NCBI GenBank assembly: GCA_025062295.1 | Contig: JANXAJ010000019.1 | Coordinates: 1 to 39,041, forward strand | Origin: Bacteroidia bacterium | Lineage (GTDB): Bacteria; Bacteroidota; Bacteroidia; SpSt-205 | Reading direction: 5' to 3' | Length of the DNA stretch: 39,041 bases | Shown here: positions 100-22,469 of the stretch, piece after piece | Position numbering within the stretch: position 1 is the stretch's first letter | Layout: each line of letters opens with the position of its first letter | Program-made: the position numbers and the translations under genes | The notes under the pieces: generated by a model | Databases searched by the model: none | What the model was told of the DNA's origin: nothing | Seen by the model: only the letters and a program-made list of their open reading frames with translations

Positions 100-3000
100 C
101 TAAGGCAAAAGCCGAAGAAGCTTCAAGCTATATTCTGTCCCCTCTATCATAACTTGGAGAGTATAAATACCCGTTGCCCATCCTCTCACATCTAACTTGA
201 ACTCATGAAAGCCTGCTGGGTAGGTTTCAGGCGTTAGATAACTTACTAAGGTGCCCCGGACATCATACGCTCGTATGCCTATACGCTTTTCTGTGGCAAT
301 CCCAACTTGAACTGTAAGCAGCTCATGCACAGGGTTCGGAAAAGCCCGAGCAAACTCGCTTAGATTGCGTATATTTTCCTTTGTGAATTCAACCTCTGCC
401 ACATTGCTATACACCAGGGCTTGAGTTCCATGCTCACTCACGACCCGATACAGATTTGGCTGCTCAAAGCTTGGGAAGCTATCCAGCCAAGTAAATCCAG
501 TTGCTCCCACTCTATCATGCCTGTAGAGGAGTACCCATCCTGTATCTACCTTTTTCTCTAGAAGAGCGTACTGTATAGGTGTATTGGTTTGCCATACCAG
601 TTGAACCTGAGCATTAGGAGTTGGAAAAGCTGTCAGCGTACTTTGAATAGCAGCTAAAGGCACACAGCTCACTACTTCTACAGTGGCTTCCATCGTGTCA
701 GGGCAGGCACCAGGGGCATTTACCACCATTTGAAGGGTTTTTATTCCAGGCGTATTCCATATACAAGCTTGTGTAGGACCTGTATGCCAAGTGAGACCTC
801 CATCGCAGCTCCACTGAACCTGCCCTCCAATCACAGGGGAACTGGAATACACCTGGAATTCACCGAAATTAGGGGCGTTTGCCGCACGGACATCAAACTC
901 TAACCTCCATAATTGGGCGAAAATGATCTGGGTCTCTGTAAAGATACCGCTGTCATAGACATATTGTCCGGAAGAAAAATGAAAAGTTTTTGCCAGCTTC
1001 CAGCCAGAGCCATCATTGTAGTAGAGTCGGGCACGATAAGGCAAGCGCTGAGCTGCGTTTGGGCAAGTCTGACATCCCCAGAAAACGATCCGATTCACAC
1101 TGCGTGGGATAGGATATCGCCACATTGCCCATTGAGTACCTGCAGATGAGTTGGCTGCTGTCCATGCTCCGCCATTCTGATAGATCCCATCACCGAGATG
1201 GACAAAATTGGCGCTCTGTACTGAGGAAAATGTAAGCTGGCCCAGATTCGGTACCGTTCCGTGAGTACCAAACCCAGTGATAAGGCTACCGAAGCTAGGT
1301 TGACTTGGACCTGAGACGAGAGTCTGATTTGTGAAAGTAACTGGCTGTCCTGTACAGTAGGGAATAGGACTGACGGAAAATTGCCCATTGAGCCTCGGCA
1401 AGGCAAGTAGAGTGAGAGGAACCCGCTCAGCTGTACACGCGTTTTCTATCCAGTACAATTCAGACCGGGTGGCAGTAGTAGAAAAGGTGGCACTATTCGT
1501 CTGAAAAGGTGTCCCTCCAGAAGGTACCCTATACCAGTCAGAAGGCACGCCGACATTAAGCGTTACGAGAGAACCCACGCACACAGCAGTGTCTTTCGTA
1601 GTAAAGGTGCCATAATAGGCAGTAGCGGCTCCATCGTAAGGTCCCCCAGCAATAGGTAAGGGACAGCGGGCAAGAATTACTTGAGCCGCTGCTCCGTCAT
1701 AAGGTCCGCCTCTTACACTGAGAGTGGCACAAGCAGCTGTAATCACTTGGGCAGCAGAGCCGTCATAGGGTCCACCTGCTGTCGCACTTGGGCAGGGGAA
1801 ACTCTGAAGAGCAGAAGCAGCCCCATCATAAGGACCGCCTCGGTAAGCAAAAGAAGGACATCCAGCGGTGAGAATCTGGGTTGCAGCCCCATCATACGGT
1901 CCGCCAGCATAAGGATGCTGAGGCGGAGGGCAATTCAAGATCGTAGCGTTTGCTGCTCCATCATACGGACCTCCAGTGTAGGGAGTTATAGGCCAGCATA
2001 TGGCTCGAATGAGAGCTGTAGCAGCCCCATCATAAGGACCGCCAGGATAGAACGATTCAGGACAATTTGCCCTCACCATTTGAGCTGCAGCACCGTCATA
2101 TGGTCCCCCGCTAATCGGCATACGACAGACCGCCTGTACAAAAGCAGTGCTAGCCCCATCATACGGGCCTCCTCTGTAGCTCAGAGATGGACAGGAAGCC
2201 CGTAGGACTTGGGATGCTGCTCCGTCATATGGCCCACCTGGAAGAGGCGGTACAATCACTTCAAACTCTATACATAGGGTAGAGCTACATGCAGCCCCAT
2301 TCGTCAGAGTTACGCAGACTCGCTTCCGTCCGGGGAGGCTATAGCTTACTGGGGGAGGCGTGGGTCCTACATGGTCAATCTGCGAAGCGCCACACGCTCC
2401 ACTCCCTGCACAAAAGTTCCAGTAAATGCCCTGTCCTGTACCCGCTACCGTGTCTGTGTAAACGGGGGTAAAGGTAATAGGCACGCCTAACCAGACAGGG
2501 GAAGAAGGGGACATACTTAGATTGACTCCTGGGTAGGGATATACCACCAGTATGCGACAAGCGGTGTCAGATTGAGTTCCATTACTAACCCCTAAGCACA
2601 CTAAGTATGTGTCAGCACGAGTATAGGTGTATTGAGGCTGAAACTGAGTAGAACTCCCCCCATCTCCAAAAAGCCAGTAGTAACTCATGCCAGGACCCAC
2701 GGAGGAATAGTTGAGAAACTGAGTGGGTTCTCCCAAGCATATGCCGCGAAAGTCAAAATTAGCTCGGGGTTTATTCGGATCAGGCGGCACACAGGTCTGA
2801 GTAATAGGAGTAGCCGTAATTTGGACCTCAATATGACCTGTCGCCCATTCTGGCATGACCACTTGTACCCAGAAGCTCTTAAGAGGAGGACGACATTTGA
2901 GATGGAGAATGACATGAGTCCCCTCTGCTACACACTCCTCCTGATTCATTGTATTACAATCGCCAGTGAGGACCCGATAGAGTACCTGCTCGCCTAGCGC

Positions 3001-6000
3001 AGTGGTATTTTCTACAATTCGCACATCAAAATTCATTGTGTCAGAGGTAAGATTATTCACTAATACCCACGCAGACTTTTTCCCTATAGGTGTTCCGAAA
3101 CAAGCCATTATCGTATCTGATTCACCCACCCCTTCTCCTATGGTGAAACAGTCTATAAAGAGATTCGCTGAATAAGGCCCGCCCGCTGCTGGAATGGAGA
3201 TTGACACCGAGTCGCGACAAAAATCGCCTGGATGTTGCCGCAGCCATATGCGTGGCACAACGACTCCCAGATGGTTACATCCTGTAATCATGATGTAGTA
3301 CCGACCTGGACGCACACATCCTCTTCCCCAATACCGATAGCCAAGGGTAGGATGTGTTTCCCAAACACCTGTCAGCGGCACCCGAACTAGGCCTGTGGAA
3401 GTGGAATCTCCAGGTACTACCTGATAATATAGCTGAATGTCCTGAGGGCTATAATTGTATTGACTTACACCTGGACGGTCATAATTTAGATAGATGTATC
3501 CTGTAATCGCTGATTCAAAAGCATACCAGATAGTTCTCGTGCCGCAAGTATTCTGATCCGTTGGATCCCTTGTGGCGCAAGTTAAATCACCCTCGCACCC
3601 CATGTAAGTCCCCTGATTGAGCGGAGACCAGGTATAAGGTCCATCGCACTGAGTGGTAGGATTGCCAATGATGACATTCGCATGAGAGTAGAAGTCATAG
3701 CGCACTGTCCAAGCAGGGAGTGGCTCATACCGTATATCTACCTCTATTTGGAGGTTAGGTTCTTTACCGCATGTATTTCGCTCCACGACTATGTAGTAAC
3801 GAGTGGGTGGAGGTACATTACACACATCCCGCAGAAAAGAGATAGTCTGGTACTGGACGCAGCAATACCACGGATCCTGAGAAGAAGCGATCAGGGAAAG
3901 TCCCTGTGCTATAGTAGAGTCTATCACGCCTGGAAAAGTGGAAGGAGGGTCATCACTCCTATACACGGCGAAGGCAGGTTGGGCGCCACCTGCAGTCAGG
4001 TTACGCACACGTACGTAGACTCGACCACTCCCCGATACCACGAAAGTGTACCAGAGGTTGCGTCGCCGGTCAACAGGCAACACTGTAGGGGGAGCATCCC
4101 CTGGAGTAGCATTATTCACTGTGCCTATCGGACAGTTTGCTGTAGGATCCGTAGCAAATGCATCAGTGGTACAGAAAATAAAATCAGTACTGGGAGGCCT
4201 TCCATACGGACCCAGGGGATCACCGATTCTGCCATTATACCACTGGTTATCGGCAGGTATAGTGCCGAAATCATATACTCCTCGAGCGTAATTGAACCGA
4301 GAGTACCCTACAGAATCTACATAAATGGTAGGAGTATATGTCTGACCGATACATCCATCACTGGCGAAGGTTACCAGCGTATAAGTGCCTGGAGGCAGCC
4401 AGCATATTCGTCCTGTCCCTGAGAAGCAATCATGCACAATCGTATAGGGAGGGGCCATGTTTGTAATGTCGCCCGCATACAGTCGAGATCGGCTCAGACA
4501 GCCAGACTGGAAGATGACCACATAGCTTGGACGGCTGATAGAAAAGACCCGATAACTCACTCGGTTTTCACTTGGATGGCAAGAGGTGATACCTGAAGGA
4601 AAAGGCAGATTAGAAGCACAAGACCAAAACTCCCAATCTAAGGTATAACTGCGATGCTGATTGGGTGCGTAGGTGTATTGAGGCACCCAATCCAGGCTTC
4701 CAGGCCGATCTGCCGTAGCGAAGGTGCTGAACTTCTGGAAGCGAGGGTCCCGAGAGAGGGTAAACCAGATGCGATTACCTATTGCTCCACCACGACCACT
4801 GGTATAAGTTGGATTTGTATAAGTGCCGCCCGCAGCATACACGACGAAGGTATACCATCCTGGCTCCATGCAAGCTGTGTAGCCGCTATGACAGTCCCGA
4901 AAGAGGGAGGTGAGAGAGCCATCACTTATCCGACCTCGGAAAGTGCGCCACCCTCGCACTCCAAGCTCTGGCCAAGCTACATAAGCATATTGAGGCGAAA
5001 AAGTAACGAGGCTCGGCTCAGCTATATAGACTTCCCAGTAGAACTGTTTAGTTGCCCCTCCACAGGGAGCATAACCCAAGATCGTCAAAGGATTATCTTC
5101 ACAGGTAACACGAGTCCAGGTGGCAGTTAGGGCGTGCGTAGTCCCTCCGATAGTTCCTATCTCCTCTACATGAGGTCGGGGGTCCGGATCAGAAGGTAGG
5201 CTCGCGGGAGAAGCTGGTACATAAAATCGCCGTTCTCCAGGAGGAAAAGCATGGAAGATGAACCAAGGACGATCCCTTTCCCCAATATCTGACTCATCTC
5301 CAAAGCTGACAAGTGTGTAGTACCCTGGCGTCACACACACTTTCACAGGCCAGTAAAGACTTTGACATCCCACCTGATCAATCAGATTTTGGATCCGTCC
5401 TCCCACAATCGGCTCTACACGAGCATCCCCTCTATAGAGTCTGTAATAAAACCGGGAGTAATTCCCTCCACCTATCTCTAAGATACCCTCCTGATTTATT
5501 CGGATAATCCGATAGATCGCTCGATTGTTTGCTGTCCCACATACATCACCGGCTGGCAGGACTGTAGAGCGACAATCTAAAGTATCTTGTGTAGCATAGT
5601 AGGTAACCCCAGGGAGAAGCGGATTGCCATTATTTATAGAGTCTGCTTCTTGGGGACGAGTGTGTAGCCCGAAGAGCTGCCGAGGCGTAGAGCCTAATCT
5701 TACATGAAAAGTGATGGGAAGCCCGAGAGCTGCTCTCTGTCCTGAGCAGGTCTGCCAGAGATTGGTCCGACTAATGCGAGCCAGAGCCTGAACCGTATAA
5801 GTGCCAGCAGGGAGACAATAGACCCATCCACTATTCTCTACCGTAGCCATGAGCGGAAGATTACACCCATCTACTGAGGTATTTCCTTGAAAGATACGAA
5901 ATTGAACTGTCCCCATGCAGTAGTAGTAGCTCCAGGGATGCGAGTACCACAGTTGCACATGCGCCGCTCCGTCTAGCGTGAAAGTGTAGTAAAGAGCAAG

Positions 6001-7155
6001 GTCAAAATCTTGAATTGTATCATCTGGCGTGACTGGACTCCCGAAGGCTAAACAGGGATTAGAGGAGATACGGCTTTGACAGCTCCAGTAATCAATCAAT
6101 GAGTAGGTAGGACCGAAGGTCAGTGTACCTAAGTGATGAGATGGAGGGATAAGAAGGGGGTTGGCAGAAAGAGCGGGCTGACTGCCCCGCTCATACAAGC
6201 GTAGACGTATCTGATTCGCATACCCAGTGCGTCCTAAAATCTTGAGAGAGTAATAGGTATTTGGCTGAAGCTGGCACAGCCAATCTGCCCGAGCAGGAGT
6301 CGTCCCATTTGGCTGAATAAGAGAAATACAACCCGTAATCAGTACAAGTCCTGCAGCAGAGTCAGTCAGGGCATTCCCTTGGTAGAGGAAAAGGCGCCAC
6401 TCCCTCGGACTAGGGTTTGAAGTATTCCATGGATCCTCCACTATCTCTACTCCAAGCCAGTCTATATGGGCGTCCGTCCGGAAAACATGCCATGTAGATT
6501 TGCTCCAGCTTGAGTCGTTCTCGCAAATAGCTTCACCGGGGGATACGGATTGACACGCAAACTCCAAGGTCACATCCCGAAGAAGCACGCTAGTGGAAGA
6601 GGTGGAAAGCAGTCCTAAGTGTTGAGCATTTGCCATGTGGTCATAGTAGGCTTCAGCGCCCAAATCTACCCGAGGTGCTTCCACAATCAGTTCTATGTAG
6701 ATGGGTCCGCTGGCTGCGAGATTAGCTCCCACCTGGATGAGGTACCATCCCCGCCGAAGGCACACATGGGTATACCCCTCCATTAGCACAATAGGAGGAT
6801 CTACCTGCTGGGCTGCGGTAGGGAGGCAAGCTGTTCCTCTGTAAAGTGTCCAACCTACATGAGTAGGATCTATGCCTATTCCTACTTGACGAATAACAAT
6901 CCGAACTGTCCGAGTAGTGGGGAGATAAAACCGATACCAGACTGATTTGCCATTTGGAACTCCAGGGGGGATATACTCACCAGGTTGAAGAGTAGCATGG
7001 GTGATATCCACAACGTCGCTGAGGAAAGTGCCTAATCCATATGCATCATGGGGATTTCCGAAAGGTATGAAGGTAGCATTTGTACAGTTGTCATTCCCGG
7101 GCGGCTGAGCCAAAAGGAGGGTGGTAAGCCCTCCTATCACCCAAAGGGAGCGCAT
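100..7155 (-). CDS. Giant modular T9SS-secreted surface protein with GGPYDGAA repeats
   Basis: This 2351-residue protein is probably exported by T9SS and anchored at the cell surface, perhaps as an adhesin; binding is inferred. In order: a short signal peptide (residues 1-16, cleaved before Gln17); about nine tandem ~160-residue beta-rich modules (about 20-1455), each with an aromatic-Y-F core, an LYRG-like strand and a final PG-x-Y strand; PKD-like domains (about 1460-1635) with WLFGDGG; ten GGPYDGAA-type repeats (about 1639-1842); an Ig-like segment; a PKD-like domain interrupted by a ~150-residue discoidin-like insert; an FN3-like segment; and a C-terminal type A sorting domain (about 2275-2351) with FPNPV and GIYTLQV. 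It starts 13 bases after the upstream SUMF1-fold gene with no Shine-Dalgarno site, so it is likely co-transcribed. Its ligand is unknown. Confidence 0.9.
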   Translation of the reverse strand: MRSLWVIGGLTTLLLAQPPGNDNCTNATFIPFGNPHDAYGLGTFLSDVVDITHATLQPGEYIPPGVPNGKSVWYRFYLPTTRTVRIVIRQVGIGIDPTHVGWTLYRGTACLPTAAQQVDPPIVLMEGYTHVCLRRGWYLIQVGANLAASGPIYIELIVEAPRVDLGAEAYYDHMANAQHLGLLSTSSTSVLLRDVTLEFACQSVSPGEAICENDSSWSKSTWHVFRTDAHIDWLGVEIVEDPWNTSNPSPREWRLFLYQGNALTDSAAGLVLITGCISLIQPNGTTPARADWLCQLQPNTYYSLKILGRTGYANQIRLRLYERGSQPALSANPLLIPPSHHLGTLTFGPTYSLIDYWSCQSRISSNPCLAFGSPVTPDDTIQDFDLALYYTFTLDGAAHVQLWYSHPWSYYYCMGTVQFRIFQGNTSVDGCNLPLMATVENSGWVYCLPAGTYTVQALARISRTNLWQTCSGQRAALGLPITFHVRLGSTPRQLFGLHTRPQEADSINNGNPLLPGVTYYATQDTLDCRSTVLPAGDVCGTANNRAIYRIIRINQEGILEIGGGNYSRFYYRLYRGDARVEPIVGGRIQNLIDQVGCQSLYWPVKVCVTPGYYTLVSFGDESDIGERDRPWFIFHAFPPGERRFYVPASPASLPSDPDPRPHVEEIGTIGGTTHALTATWTRVTCEDNPLTILGYAPCGGATKQFYWEVYIAEPSLVTFSPQYAYVAWPELGVRGWRTFRGRISDGSLTSLFRDCHSGYTACMEPGWYTFVVYAAGGTYTNPTYTSGRGGAIGNRIWFTLSRDPRFQKFSTFATADRPGSLDWVPQYTYAPNQHRSYTLDWEFWSCASNLPFPSGITSCHPSENRVSYRVFSISRPSYVVIFQSGCLSRSRLYAGDITNMAPPYTIVHDCFSGTGRICWLPPGTYTLVTFASDGCIGQTYTPTIYVDSVGYSRFNYARGVYDFGTIPADNQWYNGRIGDPLGPYGRPPSTDFIFCTTDAFATDPTANCPIGTVNNATPGDAPPTVLPVDRRRNLWYTFVVSGSGRVYVRVRNLTAGGAQPAFAVYRSDDPPSTFPGVIDSTIAQGLSLIASSQDPWYCCVQYQTISFLRDVCNVPPPTRYYIVVERNTCGKEPNLQIEVDIRYEPLPAWTVRYDFYSHANVIIGNPTTQCDGPYTWSPLNQGTYMGCEGDLTCATRDPTDQNTCGTRTIWYAFESAITGYIYLNYDRPGVSQYNYSPQDIQLYYQVVPGDSTSTGLVRVPLTGVWETHPTLGYRYWGRGCVRPGRYYIMITGCNHLGVVVPRIWLRQHPGDFCRDSVSISIPAAGGPYSANLFIDCFTIGEGVGESDTIMACFGTPIGKKSAWVLVNNLTSDTMNFDVRIVENTTALGEQVLYRVLTGDCNTMNQEECVAEGTHVILHLKCRPPLKSFWVQVVMPEWATGHIEVQITATPITQTCVPPDPNKPRANFDFRGICLGEPTQFLNYSSVGPGMSYYWLFGDGGSSTQFQPQYTYTRADTYLVCLGVSNGTQSDTACRILVVYPYPGVNLSMSPSSPVWLGVPITFTPVYTDTVAGTGQGIYWNFCAGSGACGASQIDHVGPTPPPVSYSLPGRKRVCVTLTNGAACSSTLCIEFEVIVPPLPGGPYDGAASQVLRASCPSLSYRGGPYDGASTAFVQAVCRMPISGGPYDGAAAQMVRANCPESFYPGGPYDGAATALIRAICWPITPYTGGPYDGAANATILNCPPPQHPYAGGPYDGAATQILTAGCPSFAYRGGPYDGAASALQSFPCPSATAGGPYDGSAAQVITAACATLSVRGGPYDGAAAQVILARCPLPIAGGPYDGAATAYYGTFTTKDTAVCVGSLVTLNVGVPSDWYRVPSGGTPFQTNSATFSTTATRSELYWIENACTAERVPLTLLALPRLNGQFSVSPIPYCTGQPVTFTNQTLVSGPSQPSFGSLITGFGTHGTVPNLGQLTFSSVQSANFVHLGDGIYQNGGAWTAANSSAGTQWAMWRYPIPRSVNRIVFWGCQTCPNAAQRLPYRARLYYNDGSGWKLAKTFHFSSGQYVYDSGIFTETQIIFAQLWRLEFDVRAANAPNFGEFQVYSSSPVIGGQVQWSCDGGLTWHTGPTQACIWNTPGIKTLQMVVNAPGACPDTMEATVEVVSCVPLAAIQSTLTAFPTPNAQVQLVWQTNTPIQYALLEKKVDTGWVLLYRHDRVGATGFTWLDSFPSFEQPNLYRVVSEHGTQALVYSNVAEVEFTKENIRNLSEFARAFPNPVHELLTVQVGIATEKRIGIRAYDVRGTLVSYLTPETYPAGFHEFKLDVRGWATGIYTLQVMIEGTEYSLKLLRLLP
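1631..2239 (-). repeat. Ten-copy GGPYDGAA protein repeat
   Basis: Ten GGPYDG(A/S) motifs follow each other at intervals of 63, 66, 63, 66, 69, 69, 66, 63 and 66 bases, all multiples of three. Most units continue with a short variable stretch (A-x-x-V/I-x-A-x-C-P) that ends in one cysteine. The DNA of the copies differs mainly at synonymous positions (TAT/TAC, GAT/GAC, CCT/CCA/CCC, GGT/GGA/GGC), so the peptide motif, not the DNA, is conserved. The last copy runs into the following Ig-like segment and lacks the cysteine at the usual place. I do not recognise it as a named domain. It resembles, from memory, short GG-x-x-DG repeats in other Bacteroidota T9SS proteins. Confidence 0.85.
2800..7095 (-). 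repeat. About nine tandem ~160-residue beta-sandwich-like modules
   Basis: The N-terminal 60% of the giant protein consists of repeated modules. A typical unit has a linker with a D-C-x-S type cysteine, an aromatic-Y-F strand, alternating hydrophobic strands, an LY-x-G strand and a closing C-x-x-PG-x-Y strand (LPAGTYTV, TPGYYTLV, EPGWYTFV, LPPGTYTL, RPGRYYIM). The layout recalls bacterial pre-peptidase C-terminal (PPC) domains, but the identity between units is low and the assignment is inferred from pattern only. The boundaries and the count of nine are approximate. Confidence 0.6.
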
Positions 7156-7168
7156 ACGAGTGAGCCGA

Positions 7169-8668
7169 TTAGCGGGCGCCGCGACCTCCTATCTCAAAGG
7201 AGCGTTGGGTCGGATTACGGGTATTTGCACAAGTATGACCTGGGCGAGAGCAATTTCGGCTAGAGACTCGGTGATCCTCTGGATTCTGATACCACGATCC
7301 TCCTCTCAGACCGAAGCCGCAGGGGTTGCCCAGAGGCCAATTTGGCTGGTTGGCTTGTCCATTAGTCCAATCTAAAACTCCATCCCCCCATACTCCTGTA
7401 TAGGTAGGCTGACCGACCGTCCCATCGGGCGCACTCACCATGACAACCATCTCATATACGTTCCCCGACATATCCATTGCCCCATAGTAAGAAGCTCCAC
7501 TGGCTTCACGAGAGGGAGAACCTGGCTTTGCATGAATGCCAACTCGCACAGGTCCTTGTCCGCCATCTCCCCCTGTGAAGTTACCGACCCACCCTGTGCA
7601 ATTAGCATTTGCAGGCGCACTAAAGACCTCCGTCCCGTTTTCAGGGACAATACTCAAGGTCGTGCCAAAGGCGATACTCGTAGTGCCCCAAGCGTATTCT
7701 CCCCTCACTTCAGGAAGAGTACCCCTACAGATCTTTTCATACTCCATTTCTGTCAGCGGTCTAAGGGCAGCCCAGTCCAAATAAGCGCATAGATCATGCC
7801 ACGAAAGAAAGTTTTGGGCTCGGTCTGGTCGGTCTGAGTAGTACTGATTAGGGTAAGTGCCATTATTATTGAGCCGATTCCGATTTGTACCGAAGCTTCC
7901 CACATATCGCTGTGAAGCAGCGGTGGTAGGAAGAGTGTTAAGAAAGTCAGCATACTGTCCTTGAGAAATCTCATACTTCATCACATGGAAGGCAGCAAAA
8001 CCCTTCGGAAAGGCAGCCGGAACAGTGATTGAATTCCCATTATCCCCGTTCCATCTTAGCGTAATTTGATTTTCCGAGGAGATATTATAAGGAGTTCGTG
8101 GTGTGCCTGTGCCACCATTTTGTTCAAAGGCGTAGGCGCCCCCTGTACTAGAGGTCGGAGTGCCATCTAATGTCCCGAGGACATAAGCCCCTTGCGGTAT
8201 AAACACCATTTCAATCCCGAAAATCCGAAAGTCATATTGCCCTGTGGTGGGCAGATTTGTAATGCGCAAGGTTACGCTATGAGGTCCGAAAGTAGCATAA
8301 GTGCCAGTGTTTGCAGGTCTCAGCATAACCCCTAAGTTATTGGGCGCAGGATCTATTCCTATACCACTTCCATCGGATAGCACTGCCTCTAATGCAGCTG
8401 GGATAGAATGGTCGCCGAGATTTGTACTGACTTGGCCGTGAGTCCAAGGCTGAGTAAATTCATTACAAGCGCGAAACTTGACGAAAATCCATACCGCATC
8501 CCAGTTCGCCGGAGGCGAACTCAGTCGCCAAGCATTCTCCCAGCTTACTTGAAAGGACACTGTCTGATTTGCTTGATTGACTGAAAAATTGGTAATTTGC
8601 AGATTATTCGCCAGTAGAGAAAAACAGGCAAGTAGCCCGAGCCCAGCGTATCCTCTTGTGCCTATCAT
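7169..8668 (-). CDS. Secreted SUMF1/FGE-fold protein
   Basis: This 499-residue protein has a signal-like N-terminus (about 1-20), a beta-rich domain (about 24-165) and a C-terminal formylglycine-generating-enzyme (SUMF1) fold. Recognisable family blocks are the MKYEISQGQYADFLN segment, RPLTEMEYE (about 304; usual form RLPTEAEWE), MSGNVYE (about 397; usual MSGNVWE) and LRGGSW (about 452). The usual closing GFR motif is absent: the protein ends in FEIGGRGAR. It may therefore be a structural or binding relative, as GldJ and GldK are, rather than an active oxidase. It has no T9SS sorting domain. It is the first gene of an operon with the giant surface protein 13 bases downstream, which suggests a partner role. 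Its own promoter lies just upstream. Confidence 0.82.
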   Translation of the reverse strand: MIGTRGYAGLGLLACFSLLANNLQITNFSVNQANQTVSFQVSWENAWRLSSPPANWDAVWIFVKFRACNEFTQPWTHGQVSTNLGDHSIPAALEAVLSDGSGIGIDPAPNNLGVMLRPANTGTYATFGPHSVTLRITNLPTTGQYDFRIFGIEMVFIPQGAYVLGTLDGTPTSSTGGAYAFEQNGGTGTPRTPYNISSENQITLRWNGDNGNSITVPAAFPKGFAAFHVMKYEISQGQYADFLNTLPTTAASQRYVGSFGTNRNRLNNNGTYPNQYYSDRPDRAQNFLSWHDLCAYLDWAALRPLTEMEYEKICRGTLPEVRGEYAWGTTSIAFGTTLSIVPENGTEVFSAPANANCTGWVGNFTGGDGGQGPVRVGIHAKPGSPSREASGASYYGAMDMSGNVYEMVVMVSAPDGTVGQPTYTGVWGDGVLDWTNGQANQPNWPLGNPCGFGLRGGSWYQNPEDHRVSSRNCSRPGHTCANTRNPTQRSFEIGGRGAR

Positions 8669-15091: not shown

Positions 15092-15333
15092 GCATATCCT
15101 TGAGCGTTCTTAGGCGATAATAGCTTTGCATGAAATACTTTGTCCAGAAGGTCTCAGTTTAGCCCCTATGCCAGCGTTTTGCGGGGCTACAGCTGTACAG
15201 ACCAGTTATCACTATCTTAGTACTTTGGGCGGGCCCCCCCCCCCAGCCCCCGGCGGCCCCCCCCCCCGCCCCCCTCAGGTCCTATAACAAACAAGCGCCC
15301 ACAGCTCACCAGAAATCTTGACAAATCTGGTTT
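15092..15333. other. Convergent intergenic region with hairpin and long C/G runs
   Basis: This 242-base spacer separates two convergent genes. It has an imperfect terminator-like hairpin (TAGCCCC 15160-15166, GGGGCTA 15183-15189, 16-base loop) without a T-tract. It then has an extreme C-rich tract at 15234-15274: runs of 11, 5, 11 and 6 C, so the minus strand has four long G runs. I see no small gene in it. Confidence 0.7.
15234..15274 (-). repeat. Four-run G tract with G-quadruplex potential
   Basis: Read on the minus strand, the tract holds G runs of 6, 11, 5 and 11, separated by one to seven other bases. It lies about 60 bases past the stop codon of the glycine-rich gene and could form a G-quadruplex in its 3' end. 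Homopolymers of this length are also prone to sequencing and assembly error, so the exact lengths are uncertain. Confidence 0.55.
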
Positions 15334-15335
15334 TT
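15308..15335 (+). terminator. Possible terminator after the PBP1A operon
   Basis: ACCAGA (15308-15313) pairs with TCTGGT (15326-15331) around a 12-base loop, followed by TTTT on the plus strand. The stem is short and A+T-rich, and the T-run overlaps the stop codon of the convergent glycine-rich gene. It is suggestive only. Confidence 0.35.
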
Positions 15336-18300
15336 AGCGAAGGATCGTTACAGTTCCTGTTCGCAAGAATTCTCGGTTGGAGGGAAGGCGTCCTCTTACC
15401 TTATATGTGTAAGCGCCTTCGGGACAATCACTTCCGTTTCGGCGCCCATCCCACAAGCGAGTATTGTCCCCCTCAAAGATGAGAAGGCCCCAGCGGTCAT
15501 ATACCCACACTTGATACGGGATTGAAGCACGAATCTGCCAAAGATCGTTAATCCCATCCCCATTCGGGGTGAAAACATTTGGAATGAAGATATCAACTCC
15601 TGCCTCAATTATGACGGTTCCTCGAGCCGTATCTCTACATCCCTCTGGCGTTAGAGCTACGAGTACCACTTCATAGGTATCAGGCTGAGCAAAATCAATC
15701 GGACCGGGCTGTTCTGCAGTGGAGGTTTGACCATTTCCGAAGTCCCAGAGGTATGTACTCGCCCCTTGAGATTGATTTACAAATGTAACCTGGGTCTCTG
15801 GCTGAGTCTGAAGGACCAAGGAGGGAGAAAAAGCCGCTTGAGGGACGGAATATACCGACACGGACGAGCGAGCTGTATCTCTACATCCATCAGCGCTCAC
15901 AGCTATAAGTTGAATAGAATAGGTTCCTGGCGTAGCATATACGTGCGAAGGGCTACTTGCGGTGCGAATGGTGTCTTGAGCTCCATCTCCCCATATCCAG
16001 ATGTAATACACGCCGGTCGCTCCCGCTGTGTCAGAGGTATTTTGGGGTGAAACAGAGAGAGGCGCGCATCCGCTCGACTGAGCTAAGCTCAGACCAGCCT
16101 GTGGGCGACGATTTACCGTAACTTGCCTTTGCACCGTCGTAGAACAGCGCCGATTGTGGTTCCATGCTGTCAAAGTCACGGTGTAAGATCCACTACTGGA
16201 ATAAGTGTGTTGGGGACTTGCGGCTGTACTCCGATTCCCATCTCCGAAGTCCCATTCCCATGCATAGCTATCTTCTCCGATATCGGAAAACTGCACAGGC
16301 TGATTTTCGCAGACCGTGCTAATGACTCCTATAGTCGGGGAGGGAGACTTGTAGAGCCGTATATAATGGACTTCCTCTACACTGATCCATGCTCCTCCAA
16401 AACGGGCTTCTAAGCGTACTGTATAAAAGCCTGGCTGAGTGTAGGTATGTTGAACTGGATTTTGGATGGTAGTGAGGGGAGGGGAACCATCGCCAAAGTC
16501 CCATCTATACTCGTCTGCTGCTGGAGTAGCTGTGAAAGTAGCTGTAAGCTGGTCACACCCTTCTCGCTCATCTGCTGTAAAGGAAGGAGTAGGGGGCGGA
16601 TTTGCAGAAATATTTACCTGTACAATGCAAGAAGAGATACATCCACGGCTATCGGTCAGGGTAAGTGTAGCTGTGTAGGTTCCAGCACCTCCATAATTCA
16701 CATTCTGAGTAATGGGAAGAGCATTGCTCTGCCCATTTATAGCGAAGCCATTCCCTAAGTCTATGCTATAAGCGTAAGGAGGCTGAAGTTGGGCTGCATT
16801 TGACGCATCCATGGAGAGGGTAAGAGGGAAGCCTAAAAAGCCGCTCACAGGCGAAGGGCAGGTGAGTTGCGGTTGAGGATAAACAATGATAGAGACAGAA
16901 TTGCTCAGCAGAGGACTATTGCTGATACATGGCAAATCGGATGTGACCAATACCTCGTAGGTATCGCCATTCTGAGGGGCAGGGTCGGTATAGGTAGGGG
17001 TCGTGCTACTGAGAATCACCTGTCCATTCTTTCGCCACTCATAGGTCGGGCTACTCCCTAAATTCCCACCAACGACGGTCAAGGTAACAGAAGAGCCTGC
17101 ACATACGGCAGGAGGAGAGGCTATAAGCTGAGCAGTCATCGTTTGAGTTGGAATCACCTCAAACTCCACGGAGTCTCGGATAGACCATCCACAGCACTCT
17201 GACTGTACGCGCATGTACAGCTTGTACCTGCCGGGCTGAGTGAGAGGAGGCGTAGTGTAAGAGGTAAGGTTAGCTCCACTCCTATTATCCGTAAGAGGTC
17301 CCCGGAGAACCCATTCATAAGTTTGCACGAGACGGTTATTTGGATTATTCAACTGAGCTTGAAAGGTAGCAGTCGCACCCAGACAGATAGGAAGAGAAGA
17401 GACGGGTTGAATCTCTGGGATGACGCCGGCCTGAAGAGGAGAAGAAAAGAGAGTGTAACGAAACGGTACGCCATTGACACGCAGGAGTACGGTCTGAAAA
17501 CCCGTAGTAGTGAAGAAGGTGGTGACTGTAGCTCCAGTGGCTGCGTTTGGCTGAGCATTTGGACCAAAATTCCACTCATATTGAGTGAGAAGGTCTGCAT
17601 TTTGGACTCTGAATGTCCATTCTGAATGAGCACAGATTCCACCTGCAAAAGCGATAGGCGGTTCAGTGGGTACGAAGCTACTTGTGACCGTGACGGGCTG
17701 GCCGGCGAGATTTTGATAGAGGGGTTGGGCGATGCCTGAGGCTCCATCGCCTCCTCGTCCGCCGTTTCCTCCATTGCCACCGCGTCCTCCATTTCCTCCC
17801 CATCCGCCTTGACAGCCTGCAGCACATTGATTGTTGAGGGGAGGGTCGCCGCAGAAGCGTTGGCAAGGGGAGCCGCTCCATCCACCGCCGCAGCCACCTT
17901 CACCCCCCTGTCCACCTCTTCCGCCAGCAGAACCAGTTCCTCCCTCTCCTTCTCGCCCTACTTTCAGCGGACAGTCCCGAATCTCTCCTCCCGTCCCGTT
18001 ATTCCAAATGAAGACAGCAAAGGAGCCACCGCCTCCTCCACCACCTTTTCCGCCAGGCCCTCCTTCTCCGCCTTCCCCCCCACCACCTCCACCACCGCCT
18101 GAGCTATTTGTATATCCATCATCTATCCGAACACATAAAATGTCATAGGGGATACCTCCCAGAGCTCCCCCTCCACCACCTCCGCCCCCCCCTGCACCTG
18201 GTTCGCCCGGCTGTCCATCCTCTCCATCACCAGGGATAAACCACCCTCCGCTAAAGCTCGGGTTGCCTGGCTGTCCATCGCTGCCGTTGCGACCATTTGC

Positions 18301-19242
18301 GCCATCCGTTCCATTCTTCCCTCCTCGCAGCGGATCACCAGACGGACAGCCGCCCAGTGCACCAATAAATTCGGCTACACTTGAGAAGCTTCTACAAATA
18401 TCCAATCCACTTCCTCCTTCTCCTCCTTCTCCTGCCAACTGCCCTTGAACGGCTGTAGTGCCATTGTTGCCTGAGACACCTGACGGTGCCGCTATAGAAG
18501 AGTTTAGCGGGCAAAAGTTAAGATCAAGGCACCCTGCTGGCCCCCGTCCTTGACCAATCGGCGCGCCATCTCCTCCCTTTCCTCCAGCTTGTGTTCCACC
18601 TGACCAGCTACTTCCACCATCTCCCCCTTCATTATTCGGGTCATCTACTCCCGGTTGGCACTGACGACATCCATCCTCACCTTTTTCACCTGGGGCACCA
18701 TTACGACCATTAGGTACGGGATCTCCTGGCTTTCCATCTGTGGCATCCCCTGCTTCAATCCGACATCGTACAATCCGATAATTCGAGCATCCATTCAAAT
18801 ACAGTCCGTATGTAGAGCAGCCTGGCCCATCATTCGTGTAATCAGCATCCTCCACCTCTATATGCAGGTCATGAAGTTCAAATCCCGATTTGCCAATCGC
18901 TTGAACCGCTACCAGCCTACATGGATTGATCTCAGGTGTGCCGCTTGCCCGACGCAGGCGAGTAATACCGTTACTGAGCTTGATAGGATTCTGGGGGTCT
19001 GAGAGATCAAACCCTCCCTCCAGAATCACTCCATCTTCCAGATTCAAAGGGGCTGAAAGGATGTAGTCCCCTACTTCCAGCCGGATGTATTTGGTGGGAC
19101 CTGCCGCTGCTTGAAAAATAGCGTTTTGGAGAGCATTTACATCGCCTGCTGGGACGTAGATGTAGCCGCAGCTTTCAGTTTGCCCCCACATCCAAGCCAA
19201 AAGTGCCAAAGCTAATAGAATGCTTCTTCGCATAAGGCTCAC
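15334..19242 (-). CDS. Glycine-rich PKD surface protein with type B T9SS sorting domain
   Basis: This 1302-residue protein is predicted to leave the cell by T9SS. In order: a signal peptide (MRRSILLALALLAWMWG, then Gln), a parallel-beta-helix-like domain (about 28-162) with LYLNGCSNYRIVRCR, a ~345-residue glycine-rich region (about 166-510) with collagen-like triplets and poly-Gly runs, Ig/PKD-like domains, four clear PKD domains (about 890-1205; WDFGDG motifs) and a C-terminal CHU_C type B sorting domain (about 1212-1302) with IPNVFTPNGDGINDLW and VYDRWG. The start is either the GTG at 19242, overlapping the upstream stop by one base (TAGTG), or the ATG at 19233, which gives the neater signal peptide. 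It is the second gene after its paralogue at 19242-22469. Its function is unknown; a fibre- or matrix-forming role is inferred. Confidence 0.9.
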   Translation of the reverse strand: MSLMRRSILLALALLAWMWGQTESCGYIYVPAGDVNALQNAIFQAAAGPTKYIRLEVGDYILSAPLNLEDGVILEGGFDLSDPQNPIKLSNGITRLRRASGTPEINPCRLVAVQAIGKSGFELHDLHIEVEDADYTNDGPGCSTYGLYLNGCSNYRIVRCRIEAGDATDGKPGDPVPNGRNGAPGEKGEDGCRQCQPGVDDPNNEGGDGGSSWSGGTQAGGKGGDGAPIGQGRGPAGCLDLNFCPLNSSIAAPSGVSGNNGTTAVQGQLAGEGGEGGSGLDICRSFSSVAEFIGALGGCPSGDPLRGGKNGTDGANGRNGSDGQPGNPSFSGGWFIPGDGEDGQPGEPGAGGGGGGGGGALGGIPYDILCVRIDDGYTNSSGGGGGGGGEGGEGGPGGKGGGGGGGSFAVFIWNNGTGGEIRDCPLKVGREGEGGTGSAGGRGGQGGEGGCGGGWSGSPCQRFCGDPPLNNQCAAGCQGGWGGNGGRGGNGGNGGRGGDGASGIAQPLYQNLAGQPVTVTSSFVPTEPPIAFAGGICAHSEWTFRVQNADLLTQYEWNFGPNAQPNAATGATVTTFFTTTGFQTVLLRVNGVPFRYTLFSSPLQAGVIPEIQPVSSLPICLGATATFQAQLNNPNNRLVQTYEWVLRGPLTDNRSGANLTSYTTPPLTQPGRYKLYMRVQSECCGWSIRDSVEFEVIPTQTMTAQLIASPPAVCAGSSVTLTVVGGNLGSSPTYEWRKNGQVILSSTTPTYTDPAPQNGDTYEVLVTSDLPCISNSPLLSNSVSIIVYPQPQLTCPSPVSGFLGFPLTLSMDASNAAQLQPPYAYSIDLGNGFAINGQSNALPITQNVNYGGAGTYTATLTLTDSRGCISSCIVQVNISANPPPTPSFTADEREGCDQLTATFTATPAADEYRWDFGDGSPPLTTIQNPVQHTYTQPGFYTVRLEARFGGAWISVEEVHYIRLYKSPSPTIGVISTVCENQPVQFSDIGEDSYAWEWDFGDGNRSTAASPQHTYSSSGSYTVTLTAWNHNRRCSTTVQRQVTVNRRPQAGLSLAQSSGCAPLSVSPQNTSDTAGATGVYYIWIWGDGAQDTIRTASSPSHVYATPGTYSIQLIAVSADGCRDTARSSVSVYSVPQAAFSPSLVLQTQPETQVTFVNQSQGASTYLWDFGNGQTSTAEQPGPIDFAQPDTYEVVLVALTPEGCRDTARGTVIIEAGVDIFIPNVFTPNGDGINDLWQIRASIPYQVWVYDRWGLLIFEGDNTRLWDGRRNGSDCPEGAYTYKVRGRLPSNREFLRTGTVTILR
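17710..18747 (-). repeat. Glycine-rich, collagen-like region of the type B protein
   Basis: About 345 residues are dominated by Gly with Asn, Asp, Ser, Pro and Glu. Short G-x-y runs (GRNGAPGEKGEDG, GEDGQPGEPG) alternate with GGGGGGGG runs and Cys-containing loops. It sits inside the N-terminal beta-helix-like domain, which resumes near SFAVFIWNNG. Such sequences can pack as polyglycine-II bundles or collagen-like helices; neither can be decided from sequence. Confidence 0.75.
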
Positions 19243-22200
19243 TAAATCTTATGAAGCTTTACGGTATGAGGTCCAATTCTAAGGAAATATAAACCAGAAG
19301 GCAATTGAGACAGATTGAGCGAGTGAATCCCCGCAGGAAAATGCCCTTCCCACAGAAGCTTTCCACGGCCCTCATATAAAGCCACTACAGCTTGAGTGGA
19401 TAGGTGAAGGAGTACCACTTCGGTGCATGGATTCGGATACACCCGAAAAGTTTCTCTTGGATGCCTTCCGAGTGCAGTTCCTGGGGCAGGATTGGGAAGC
19501 TTAATAACTGCTTCAGGTTTGACAAGCGTGTCCCGACAGCCATATAGATTCTCTACGATAAGGGTGACTGAATATCGTCCGGGTTGGGAATAAAAATAAG
19601 CTGGATTAGGGTCTGTGGATGAGGCATTCGGATTGAGTGGGTCGCCAAAGAACCACTGCCAGCTGGTCGCTCCCTGTGATTGAGAGACGAAGTAAGCTGT
19701 ATCCGACTCATATAAAATCGGAGGGAACACCGAAAAATCAGCCACAGGGACGGGATAAACAATCACCTGAGCCTCGCGGCGGGCAGTGTCAGTTCCTGTG
19801 GCAGAAATAGCATAAAGCGTAACCGTGTATTCGCCTGAGGCGGTGTAGGTATGGGTAGGGTCAGATTGAGTAGAAGAAAAGCCATCTCCAAAGTCCCAGC
19901 GGTAAGCATTCGCAGAAGAACTCAGATTCTGGAAACTCACTGTAAGAGGCGGGCATCCCTGCATAGGGGAGGCCGCAAAGTCAGCAATGGGGAGCCTGTA
20001 GATTACCAGAGTCGTCTCACAAACAAAAGCTGAACTGCTTTCGCAGCCATTACTATCAACGATTCTTAGCCGAATCTGGTAGGTTCCAGCTTCAGGATAG
20101 AGGATAGTGGCAGGATTCCCTACTGCCCCCCGTCCATCGCCAAGGTCCCAGTAGAAAGTGTAAGGGGGTGTTCCACCTATCGCCGTCGCTGAAAGAGTGA
20201 GGAGCTCGCCTGGAACAGGTGTACCTGTAAGCGTTATGCAACTTCCGCTGAGAGATTGGGGCTGGGGCAGGGGATGAACCGTCACAACGAGAGTATTAGA
20301 AGAGATAGACTGTCCTTGACCGCAAGGTGTGTTATCTACAGCTACTGCTTGCACTTGATCTCCCTGCTGTGGATTGAGAAGAGTAAAGGTAGTACCACTG
20401 CCTTGGGGCGAGTTATTGACAAGCCAGGTGATAGAGGGGTTGGGTCCGAAATGCTCTAACTGTGCGATGAAGGAAAGAGGCTGTCCTGTACAGACCTCCA
20501 GCGTTCCTGAAGCTGAAGAGATAGTAAGGGTGGGACGAGGAAGGTCTAATACTACTAATTGCCTTTGGATAGGATCAGACCAGCCGCAACAGGGAGAGTA
20601 GGTCTGATGAGTAATCGTAAAAGTGCCAGCCGTTTCACACAGCACCTCAATAGACTGGGCTGATGGGTCGATCACAGATGGGGCTGCTCCACCAAGATCC
20701 CACGCATAGTTAGCTGCACCTACAAGACTGCTGGTCAGAGTAACGGATGAATTCAAGCATACCGTATCTGCGCTCTGAGTGAAAGTGGGATTCGTACCGC
20801 TTCCATCATCCCGAATGTCTAGAAAGTCATAATAGACGAAGGTTTGTCCGTTTGCTACAAGAGAGAGGTTCTTTCGTCCGAAAGAGCTGTAGCGGGTCAT
20901 TACTGTATCGCCGCTTGCAGAAGGAGGGGTGCTGCCAGGACCAAAAAACCATACAAGAGAACCGGCTGCATCAGTCCAAATCTTTACCCCTCGCTCAGTA
21001 CAACCGCTATATTGTACGAAGACTTTAGGCTCATCCGGACTGCGGAAGGTAGAAAAAGTGGGGGCAGTGCTACCAGCAGAGATGTAGAGGTCTTGAGCCA
21101 AGCCATTGGCACCGGCCCCACCGTTTCCACCATTCCCGCCGTTGCCGCCATTCCCGCCATTTCCACCATAGCCAATATCACATGCGCTTGGCTGTCCGCT
21201 GCATCCTCTGGCTCCACCGCAGCCGCCTCTTCCTCCTCGTCCTCCCGCTCCGCCTAAGCCCCCACTCGCTCCTGCGCCAGGCAGCCCTGATTCTGCTACC
21301 ACATCTACAAAGAGTGTATTATTTCCATTGTTCCATAGGTATATGCCAAAGGAGCCGCCACCTCCTCCCCCCCCTTTTCCACCCTTGCCACCTTCGCCGC
21401 CTTCTCCCCCTCCTCCTCCCCCAGCCCCTGAGCCGTTAGTATTCCCGAAGAGACACAGAAGATTACCTTGGCTTCCTCCTCCCCCTCCACCGCCACCCCC
21501 CGAGCCGTGCTGTCCATCGGCTCCATCCTCACCACTCCCTGGTCTAAAGAAGCCGCCGCTATGCGAAGGGATGCCGATACCGCCATTAGTACCAGGCAAA
21601 CCGTCCTGTCCATTCTCCCCATCGCCTCCATTATGAACTGGCTGATTGTCGCAGCCTGCGCTAATAAAGGTGGCATTACCCACACCCCCGCTCCCACCTG
21701 CCCCACCAGCTGGAGCGTATGACTGAGCAGTAGAGGGATTTCCTCGCTGGCCAGGGTCTCCTGGAAAGGCAGATCCGCCTGGTCCGCATGTTCCGCGGGC
21801 CCCCCCTTGACCTCCCCCTCCGCCTGCTACTAATCCACCCGACCATCCATTCCCTCCCAACCCTCCGCCCCTACAACATCCTCCATCTTCATCTCCTTTC
21901 TCGCCAATGCCCCCTGGGGCTCCATCTCGTCCTGCTGCGCCGTTAGCCCCCGGCTCACCATTCCCCCCAGCACCTGCTATAAAACGACACCGATTCACCA
22001 CATAATCACTACATCCATTCAAATAAAGCGTATAAGTCGTCGTACTTCCACCTAATGTGGTGGCATCTTCTACATAGACTTCTAAGTCCTGTAGGCGAAA
22101 TCCACTCACTCCAATCCCTTCAATCGCAACAAGGCGAGAGGGATTTGCCTGCGGATTGACAGCTGTACGAAAGAGAATGGTAGGATACAAATTCGTCTTG

Positions 22201-22469
22201 AGCCACCCTTGAGCGGGGTCAAATCCTCCTTCTATCTGAAGGTCATTGTGAAGGGGTAAAGGTTGGGTAAGTGTATAGTTCCCATACGCTAAATAAATCC
22301 GTCTAATAGTTGGTGTAAGAAGATTGGAGATAGCATAATTCAGCTCGGCTGGCGTACTTCGGGTCCCTGTACCTGGTCCTACACTACCATTTGGAGCGAC
22401 AAAAATAACGTCGCACTCTTGCGCCCATAAGAGAAATGCCCACACAAGCCCGAGGAGAGGAAGCAGCAT
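19242..22469 (-). CDS. Glycine-rich PKD surface protein with type A T9SS sorting domain
   Basis: This 1075-residue protein is the paralogue of the next gene in the operon. It has a 16-residue signal peptide ending before Gln17 and a parallel-beta-helix-like domain (about 20-165) with LYLNGCSDYVVNRCR. A glycine-rich region (about 166-455) contains GANGAAGRDGAPGGIGEKG and long GGNGGNGGNGG runs. Ig/PKD-like domains follow, with about three clear PKD domains (about 735-985; WDLGDG, WDFGDG and WFFGDP). The C-terminal type A sorting domain (about 1000-1075) has VYPNP and LPSGLYFLRI. Its stop codon overlaps the downstream GTG. A -7 element TATATTTG lies four bases before its ATG. The pairing of near-identical architectures with different sorting domains is unusual. 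Confidence 0.9.
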   Translation of the reverse strand: MLLPLLGLVWAFLLWAQECDVIFVAPNGSVGPGTGTRSTPAELNYAISNLLTPTIRRIYLAYGNYTLTQPLPLHNDLQIEGGFDPAQGWLKTNLYPTILFRTAVNPQANPSRLVAIEGIGVSGFRLQDLEVYVEDATTLGGSTTTYTLYLNGCSDYVVNRCRFIAGAGGNGEPGANGAAGRDGAPGGIGEKGDEDGGCCRGGGLGGNGWSGGLVAGGGGGQGGARGTCGPGGSAFPGDPGQRGNPSTAQSYAPAGGAGGSGGVGNATFISAGCDNQPVHNGGDGENGQDGLPGTNGGIGIPSHSGGFFRPGSGEDGADGQHGSGGGGGGGGGSQGNLLCLFGNTNGSGAGGGGGGEGGEGGKGGKGGGGGGGSFGIYLWNNGNNTLFVDVVAESGLPGAGASGGLGGAGGRGGRGGCGGARGCSGQPSACDIGYGGNGGNGGNGGNGGNGGAGANGLAQDLYISAGSTAPTFSTFRSPDEPKVFVQYSGCTERGVKIWTDAAGSLVWFFGPGSTPPSASGDTVMTRYSSFGRKNLSLVANGQTFVYYDFLDIRDDGSGTNPTFTQSADTVCLNSSVTLTSSLVGAANYAWDLGGAAPSVIDPSAQSIEVLCETAGTFTITHQTYSPCCGWSDPIQRQLVVLDLPRPTLTISSASGTLEVCTGQPLSFIAQLEHFGPNPSITWLVNNSPQGSGTTFTLLNPQQGDQVQAVAVDNTPCGQGQSISSNTLVVTVHPLPQPQSLSGSCITLTGTPVPGELLTLSATAIGGTPPYTFYWDLGDGRGAVGNPATILYPEAGTYQIRLRIVDSNGCESSSAFVCETTLVIYRLPIADFAASPMQGCPPLTVSFQNLSSSANAYRWDFGDGFSSTQSDPTHTYTASGEYTVTLYAISATGTDTARREAQVIVYPVPVADFSVFPPILYESDTAYFVSQSQGATSWQWFFGDPLNPNASSTDPNPAYFYSQPGRYSVTLIVENLYGCRDTLVKPEAVIKLPNPAPGTALGRHPRETFRVYPNPCTEVVLLHLSTQAVVALYEGRGKLLWEGHFPAGIHSLNLSQLPSGLYFLRIGPHTVKLHKI
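21095..21974 (-). repeat. Glycine-rich, collagen-like region of the type A protein
   Basis: About 290 residues repeat the design seen in the neighbouring paralogue: G-x-y triplets first, then poly-Gly, a return to a strand (SFGIYLWNNG), then GGNGGNGG runs and Cys loops. The opposite strand therefore reads as poly-proline in several frames, which is not coding. Confidence 0.75.

Follow-up and report, generated by a model that had tools for sequence, protein, structure and literature searches.

A secreted protein with ten GGPYDG units is encoded in the window, the whole stretch of 39,041 nucleotides from a Bacteroidia bacterium (contig JANXAJ010000019.1) that was analysed. This array belongs to an unnamed family of GGxxDG repeats that is spread through secreted proteins of the whole phylum Bacteroidota. 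The genes of such proteins are almost always found immediately downstream of a gene for a probably inactive protein resembling formylglycine-generating enzyme (FGE). The repeat family and the pairing of the two genes are described in none of the libraries and papers searched. The FGE fold and the export route are known, and so is docking by an inactive FGE fold in Bacteroidota. The original prediction overlooked both the occurrence of the repeat across the phylum and the FGE-like gene directly upstream, which is a near-constant companion of the array.

The array protein and its repeat

The array protein comprises 2351 residues and is encoded by a single open reading frame on the minus strand (100..7155), with orthologues in the genus and in other families. 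A putative Sec signal peptide (MRSLWVIGGLTTLLLA; 7108..7155, minus strand) was assigned by eye. The protein further contains a PKD domain (residues 1474-1532; 2560..2736, minus strand; PF00801, 39.3 bits with a cut-off of 23.5), the ten GGPYDG units (residues 1640-1845; 1621..2238, minus strand), an Ig_7-like domain (residues 1854-1916; 1408..1596, minus strand; PF19081, 22.0 bits, below the cut-off of 27.3) and a C-terminal sorting domain of the type IX secretion system (T9SS; Por_Secre_tail, residues 2272-2345; 121..342, minus strand; PF18962, 29.9 bits with a cut-off of 27). The sorting domain is also present in most of the relatives scanned. The signal peptide and the sorting tail are shared with T9SS cargo that carries Por_Secre_tail and PKD/Ig_7 domains, but the array protein differs from other T9SS cargo in its unnamed GGxxDG repeat and in being paired with an FGE-like gene. 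The original prediction located the array at positions 1631-2239, which is right to within about 10 bases. A 174-aa open frame on the plus strand (1681-2205) runs antisense to the array and is probably no gene but a by-product of the repeat. Elsewhere in the window, two adjoining glycine-rich, secreted-looking proteins are encoded on the minus strand (15334-22469), and positions 15228-15274 hold a C-rich 23-base tandem.

All ten units carry GGPYDG without any variation, followed by alanine in nine of them and by serine in one. Shuffling of the array protein yields at most one copy of the motif in any of 2000 shuffles. The spacings are 22, 21, 22, 23, 23, 22, 21, 22 and 21 residues, with units 4-5 forming an off-phase 23/23 pair, and each of the nine full units contains exactly one cysteine (residues 1655, 1677, 1698, 1720, 1742, 1766, 1788, 1809 and 1831). 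The near-invariant GGPYDG(A/S) motif, the periods of 21-23 residues and the single cysteine in nine units, all noted originally, are borne out. Among the 45 unit pairs, the motif codons differ at 169 nucleotides, every one of these differences being synonymous; the linkers of the same pairs show 108 synonymous and 670 non-synonymous differences. Tandem Repeats Finder detects no DNA-level repeat at the array. Since all motif differences are synonymous and no repeat is visible at the DNA level, the array is old and conserved at the protein level, in agreement with the selection proposed at the outset. The array occurs only once in the genome of the window, according to a genome search, and no matches were found among plasmids and viral contigs. 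The view that no named domain fits also holds: no model in Pfam or NCBIfam covers the GGxxDG repeat, and neither the motif nor its FGE-like pairing is described in the open-licence part of the literature searched.

Structure prediction with AF2 gave models of low confidence, both for the PKD-array-Ig7 segment (pLDDT 43.7) and for the array with a 13-row alignment (pLDDT 55.8, pTM 0.50). Regular short beta strands follow the DG turn in both models, in keeping with the strand-turn-strand element that the GGxxDG unit probably is, but at this confidence the models speak neither for nor against an ordered fold, and so neither for nor against the disorder that the original prediction named as refuting. 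Foldseek returned no match at E<=1e-3. A profile search of the PDB with the repeat retrieved mainly Kelch proteins through a local GGYDG turn (8pjx, 2.5e-6; Keap1, 0.04-0.2), and the YxxGGYDG strand-turn-strand motif of Kelch repeats is indeed locally similar to the array unit. A Kelch-like beta-propeller with two 21/22-residue units per blade, to which the 43-residue dimer period in the genus would correspond, is nevertheless very improbable. The PDB matches cover the turn motif only, there is no Pfam Kelch match, and single-copy motifs exist. Moreover, Kelch repeats have about 44-56 residues with a GG doublet and conserved Tyr/Trp, whereas the array units have 19-32 residues, a period of about 22 instead of about 50 and no Trp, and their variable copy number (3-20) is unsuited to a closed ring. 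MORN repeats are hairpins of about 23 residues whose Y-x-G-x-x-x-D-G spacing is similar to that of the array unit. They were likewise rejected, with no Pfam MORN match at E<=1 to 5. Metal binding had been suggested in the original prediction, and the Asp and Gly residues in a probable tight turn would suit an RTX-type repeat. However, the RTX nonapeptide reads GGxGxDxUx, while the array has GG-x-x-D-G with a single Asp per 19-32 residues, no nonapeptide spacing and no family match. Nothing in the sequence appears to point to calcium, and this explanation is considered most unlikely.

A repeat family paired with FGE-like genes

The orthologues within the genus contain 10, 10, 14 and 18 units, and a further one (genome G008) is frame-broken into 4 + 13 units. 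As the unit numbers of the first four orthologues are all even, the array probably grew by 43-residue dimers. An odd pair of 23-residue units is common to all genus orthologues, with differing numbers of normal units on its flanks, and reads ICWPITxYT / NCPPPxHPYA in most of them. Relatives in two other families (L153 and L155; 2322 and 2335 aa) possess ten units and a similarly placed off-phase stretch, and another relative of 2272 aa (L152) has eleven 22-residue units without such a stretch. Off-phase pairs (23/23, 25/23/23 or 23/24) were observed within the arrays of the window, L021, L022, L023, L025, L153 and L155, whose flanking 22/21 units differ in number. They may represent a site with a special role or the trace of an ancient fusion. 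In the paralogues L026 and L027, 25-residue units make up most of a smaller protein. Frameshifts inside the array occur at L024:5934-5996 (G008) and L027:5500-5530 (G007), and could stem from slippage of the repeat, from phase variation or from an error of assembly.

More distant relatives are distributed Bacteroidota-wide, and their unit length ranges from 19 to 32 residues. In a set of 211 units, the motif positions are conserved with frequencies of 1.00 (G), 0.99 (G), 0.93 (D) and 1.00 (G), and F or Y is located two residues ahead of the motif in 80% of the units. A variable linker of 19-32 residues combined with a fixed GG..DG is what would be expected of a recognition element.

An FGE-like gene is located directly upstream in every array locus that has upstream sequence. 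These loci are the window, L021, L023, L118/L024, L026, L027, L107, L109, L110, L111, L112, L113, L114 and L115. The reverse test covered 40 loci, in which the next ORF after the FGE-like gene, itself non-FGE, was compared with a background of 484 other ORFs. Arrays of at least three units were found in 13/40 next ORFs versus 0/484 in the background (Fisher p=4e-16). One or more GGxxDG motifs were present in 23/40 versus 5/484 (Fisher p=9e-25). In many of the remaining next ORFs, the mature protein opens with a single motif, degenerate in some cases (e.g. AQTLNKYHGGNGDGYALG and AQAPYAGGEGDGYAS), and several of these single-motif proteins end in a T9SS-tail-like sequence. At several more distant FGE-like genes, the adjacent motif protein is absent. 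The association is strong, albeit not universal, and a functional link between the array gene and the FGE-like gene is very likely. Given this tight pairing, the two proteins probably act together at the cell surface.

FGE-like genes were searched for in 247 genomes sampled from the class, using the FGE-like alignment as query (E<=1e-15). The partner was detected in 48/247 of these genomes, corresponding to 36/141 genera. Another FGE-like gene follows 13/55 FGE-like ORFs. Two to four tandem FGE-like genes precede the array or other large secreted genes at L152:2-5478, L167, L168 and L184, and the partner is split into two ORFs at L114:5983-7324 and L112:9059-10585 (frameshift; in-frame TAG).

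The FGE-like partner and the matching cysteines

In the window, the partner gene (7169..8668, minus strand) lies upstream of the array gene at a distance of 13 bp and encodes a secreted FGE-like protein of 499 aa. Its FGE-sulfatase domain (residues 224-478; 7235..7999, minus strand) matches PF03781 with 48.7 bits, compared to a cut-off of 23.3. Among PDB sequences, the matches at E<=0.01 are proteins named formylglycine-generating enzymes, one of them a kinase, with a best E of 8e-5; PorK is not among them. In FGE, the Cu(I)-binding catalytic Cys pair sits after RGG. A pattern search recovered this pair in 0/62 FGE-like proteins, and the FGE substrate motif CxPxR is present in 0/164 Cys units of the arrays. 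In view of these two results, an enzymatic function of the partner is improbable. No T9SS tail is visible in the partner. Inspection of the lipobox by eye revealed LLAC in the signal of the window partner, and no Cys at the signal end in L021, L023 and other members.

Close FGE-like orthologues differ in a stretch of about 35 residues that comes after RGGSW and ends in a conserved GGRG(A/V)R (e.g. window 7169-7310). The variability of the C-terminus exceeds that of the remaining protein only moderately. A varying C-terminus on an FGE-like fold is also known from the variable proteins of diversity-generating retroelements (DGRs; C-type lectin/FGE fold). A DGR was rejected, since no reverse transcriptase (RVT_1) was found in the window genome or in 9/10 array genomes, one of which is single-contig, and the 3' end of the FGE-like gene has no second copy. 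One array genome carries an RVT_1 on another contig (G148:C10:784194-784814; L121).

The cysteines of the arrays follow an all-or-none pattern. In 19 Cys-containing arrays, exactly one Cys is present in 166/166 full units, while five Cys-less arrays have none in 21/21 units. A matching Cys column is found in the N-terminal domain of the partner (FVKFRxC), represented in the window by Cys68 (WDAVWIFVKFRAC; codon at 8465..8467, minus strand, hand-counted from the 499-aa ORF). It is occupied in 16/18 partners of Cys arrays and in 0/7 partners of Cys-less arrays. The two partners missing the Cys are truncated ORFs, and realignment recovers the residue, once in a split-off N-terminal ORF. At the family level, a hand tally in which any unit Cys was counted gives 9,0 / 6,16 (p=2.5e-4). 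This table becomes perfect under an offset rule, which is post hoc. It concerns six loci (L172, L156, L157, L159, L170 and L111) that lack the partner Cys and have their unit Cys at offset 10, counted from the first Gly, assigned post hoc to a second Cys subtype. At L162 and L176, the unit Cys is at offset 12 and the partner Cys is shifted by about 4-5 residues (ETGGACT, TGGTGC).

A later draw from the phylum yielded motif-bearing loci with neither a partner Cys nor a unit Cys. As this draw gave Cys-negative partners only, it tests one side of the covariation. The partner-Cys trait changes about three times on the partner tree, and the 1-4 independent pairs are mostly or all concordant, too few for significance. 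With so few changes and independent pairs, common descent could explain the covariation. The cross-linking role also envisaged in the original prediction comes closer to these results than metal binding, with one Cys per unit, all-or-none occurrence and covariation with the partner Cys speaking for it, and the few independent changes against.

The same gene pairing could be accounted for if the FGE-like protein were an enzyme acting on the repeat in the periplasm, prior to export, either by converting Cys to formylglycine or by another change at the GGxxDG turn, making the array a multi-site substrate. FGE acts on short linear motifs, and Pro is often found at +1 or +2 of the unit Cys (57 and 45 of 164). 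However, the missing catalytic Cys pair and the missing CxPxR described above argue against such a modification, as do whole Cys-less arrays that retain the same partner. These three observations led to the rejection of formylglycine formation, and a modifying enzyme in general is distinctly unlikely.

Proposed docking on an inactive FGE fold

A precedent for an FGE fold without enzymatic function exists in the T9SS itself. PorK has the FGE fold without its cysteines, and the former substrate groove docks turns of PorN (PMC12421860). GldK also belongs to the FGE-fold proteins (PMC12421860) and is disulfide-bonded to SprF and PorG (PMC12635249). The partner resembles PorK, GldK and GldJ in its FGE fold without catalytic cysteines, as judged from the sequence match, and in the T9SS setting within Bacteroidota. 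It differs from them by its own N-terminal domain, the lack of a consistent lipobox and the pairing with a secreted cargo gene. Of the features defining the PorK/GldK/GldJ group, the inactive FGE fold was found by sequence and the lipoprotein anchor was not. With FGE proper (SUMF1/FGE, PF03781), the partner shares the Pfam domain, and it might conceivably recognise a short linear motif as well; the catalytic Cys pair and CxPxR set the two apart.

In the proposed mechanism, the array would offer consecutive docking sites, and the product of the FGE-like gene immediately upstream would recognise each GGxxDG unit. The partner would have lost catalysis, its FGE fold now serving for binding. Export by the T9SS would bring the array protein to the cell surface, where it would display several FGE-like subunits, their number being set by the number of units. 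The partner may be co-exported with it. In Cys-type arrays, including that of the window, the unit Cys would form a disulfide with the Cys in the N-domain of the partner (Cys68 in the window). Cys-less arrays exist, and pairs of that type must therefore work without a disulfide. Physical binding of array and partner is judged to be an even proposition. The docking model, in which the units bind the FGE-like partner and the Cys type is held by a disulfide, falls just short of that. A disulfide between array and partner, taken separately, is a rather doubtful element. The most elaborate version, a phylum-wide two-gene surface system with one inactive FGE-fold subunit per GGxxDG unit of a T9SS-exported repeat protein and intermolecular disulfides building a multivalent covalent scaffold, can be put forward only tentatively and is on balance improbable.

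Alternatively, the array may form a rigid or elastic stalk, beta-rich and perhaps a solenoid, with cysteines paired internally. The FGE-like protein would then be expressed together with it at the surface but make no contact with the array. The copy number varies (10-18), as in stalks, and the low-confidence AF2 models contain regular short strands. Furthermore, one 32-residue array (L109:2393-3217) barely exceeds the cut-off of a Pfam model of an autotransporter beta-solenoid region (PF24078, 28.0 bits versus 27), over 25 residues only. A stalk leaves unexplained the fixed GG..DG with its freely varying linker, the single-copy motifs at mature N-termini beside FGE-like genes and the match between unit and partner cysteines. 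In addition, the nine cysteines of the window array are an odd number, so that not all can pair within the array. Overall, this explanation appears unlikely.

With its FGE-like companion, a previously unannotated repeat becomes a defined and widespread two-gene module. Docking of the partner onto the GGxxDG units, if true, predicts one partner per repeat unit and, in the Cys type, additionally one disulfide per unit. It would carry the recently found reuse of the FGE fold for docking in Bacteroidota beyond the T9SS core and into secreted surface proteins.
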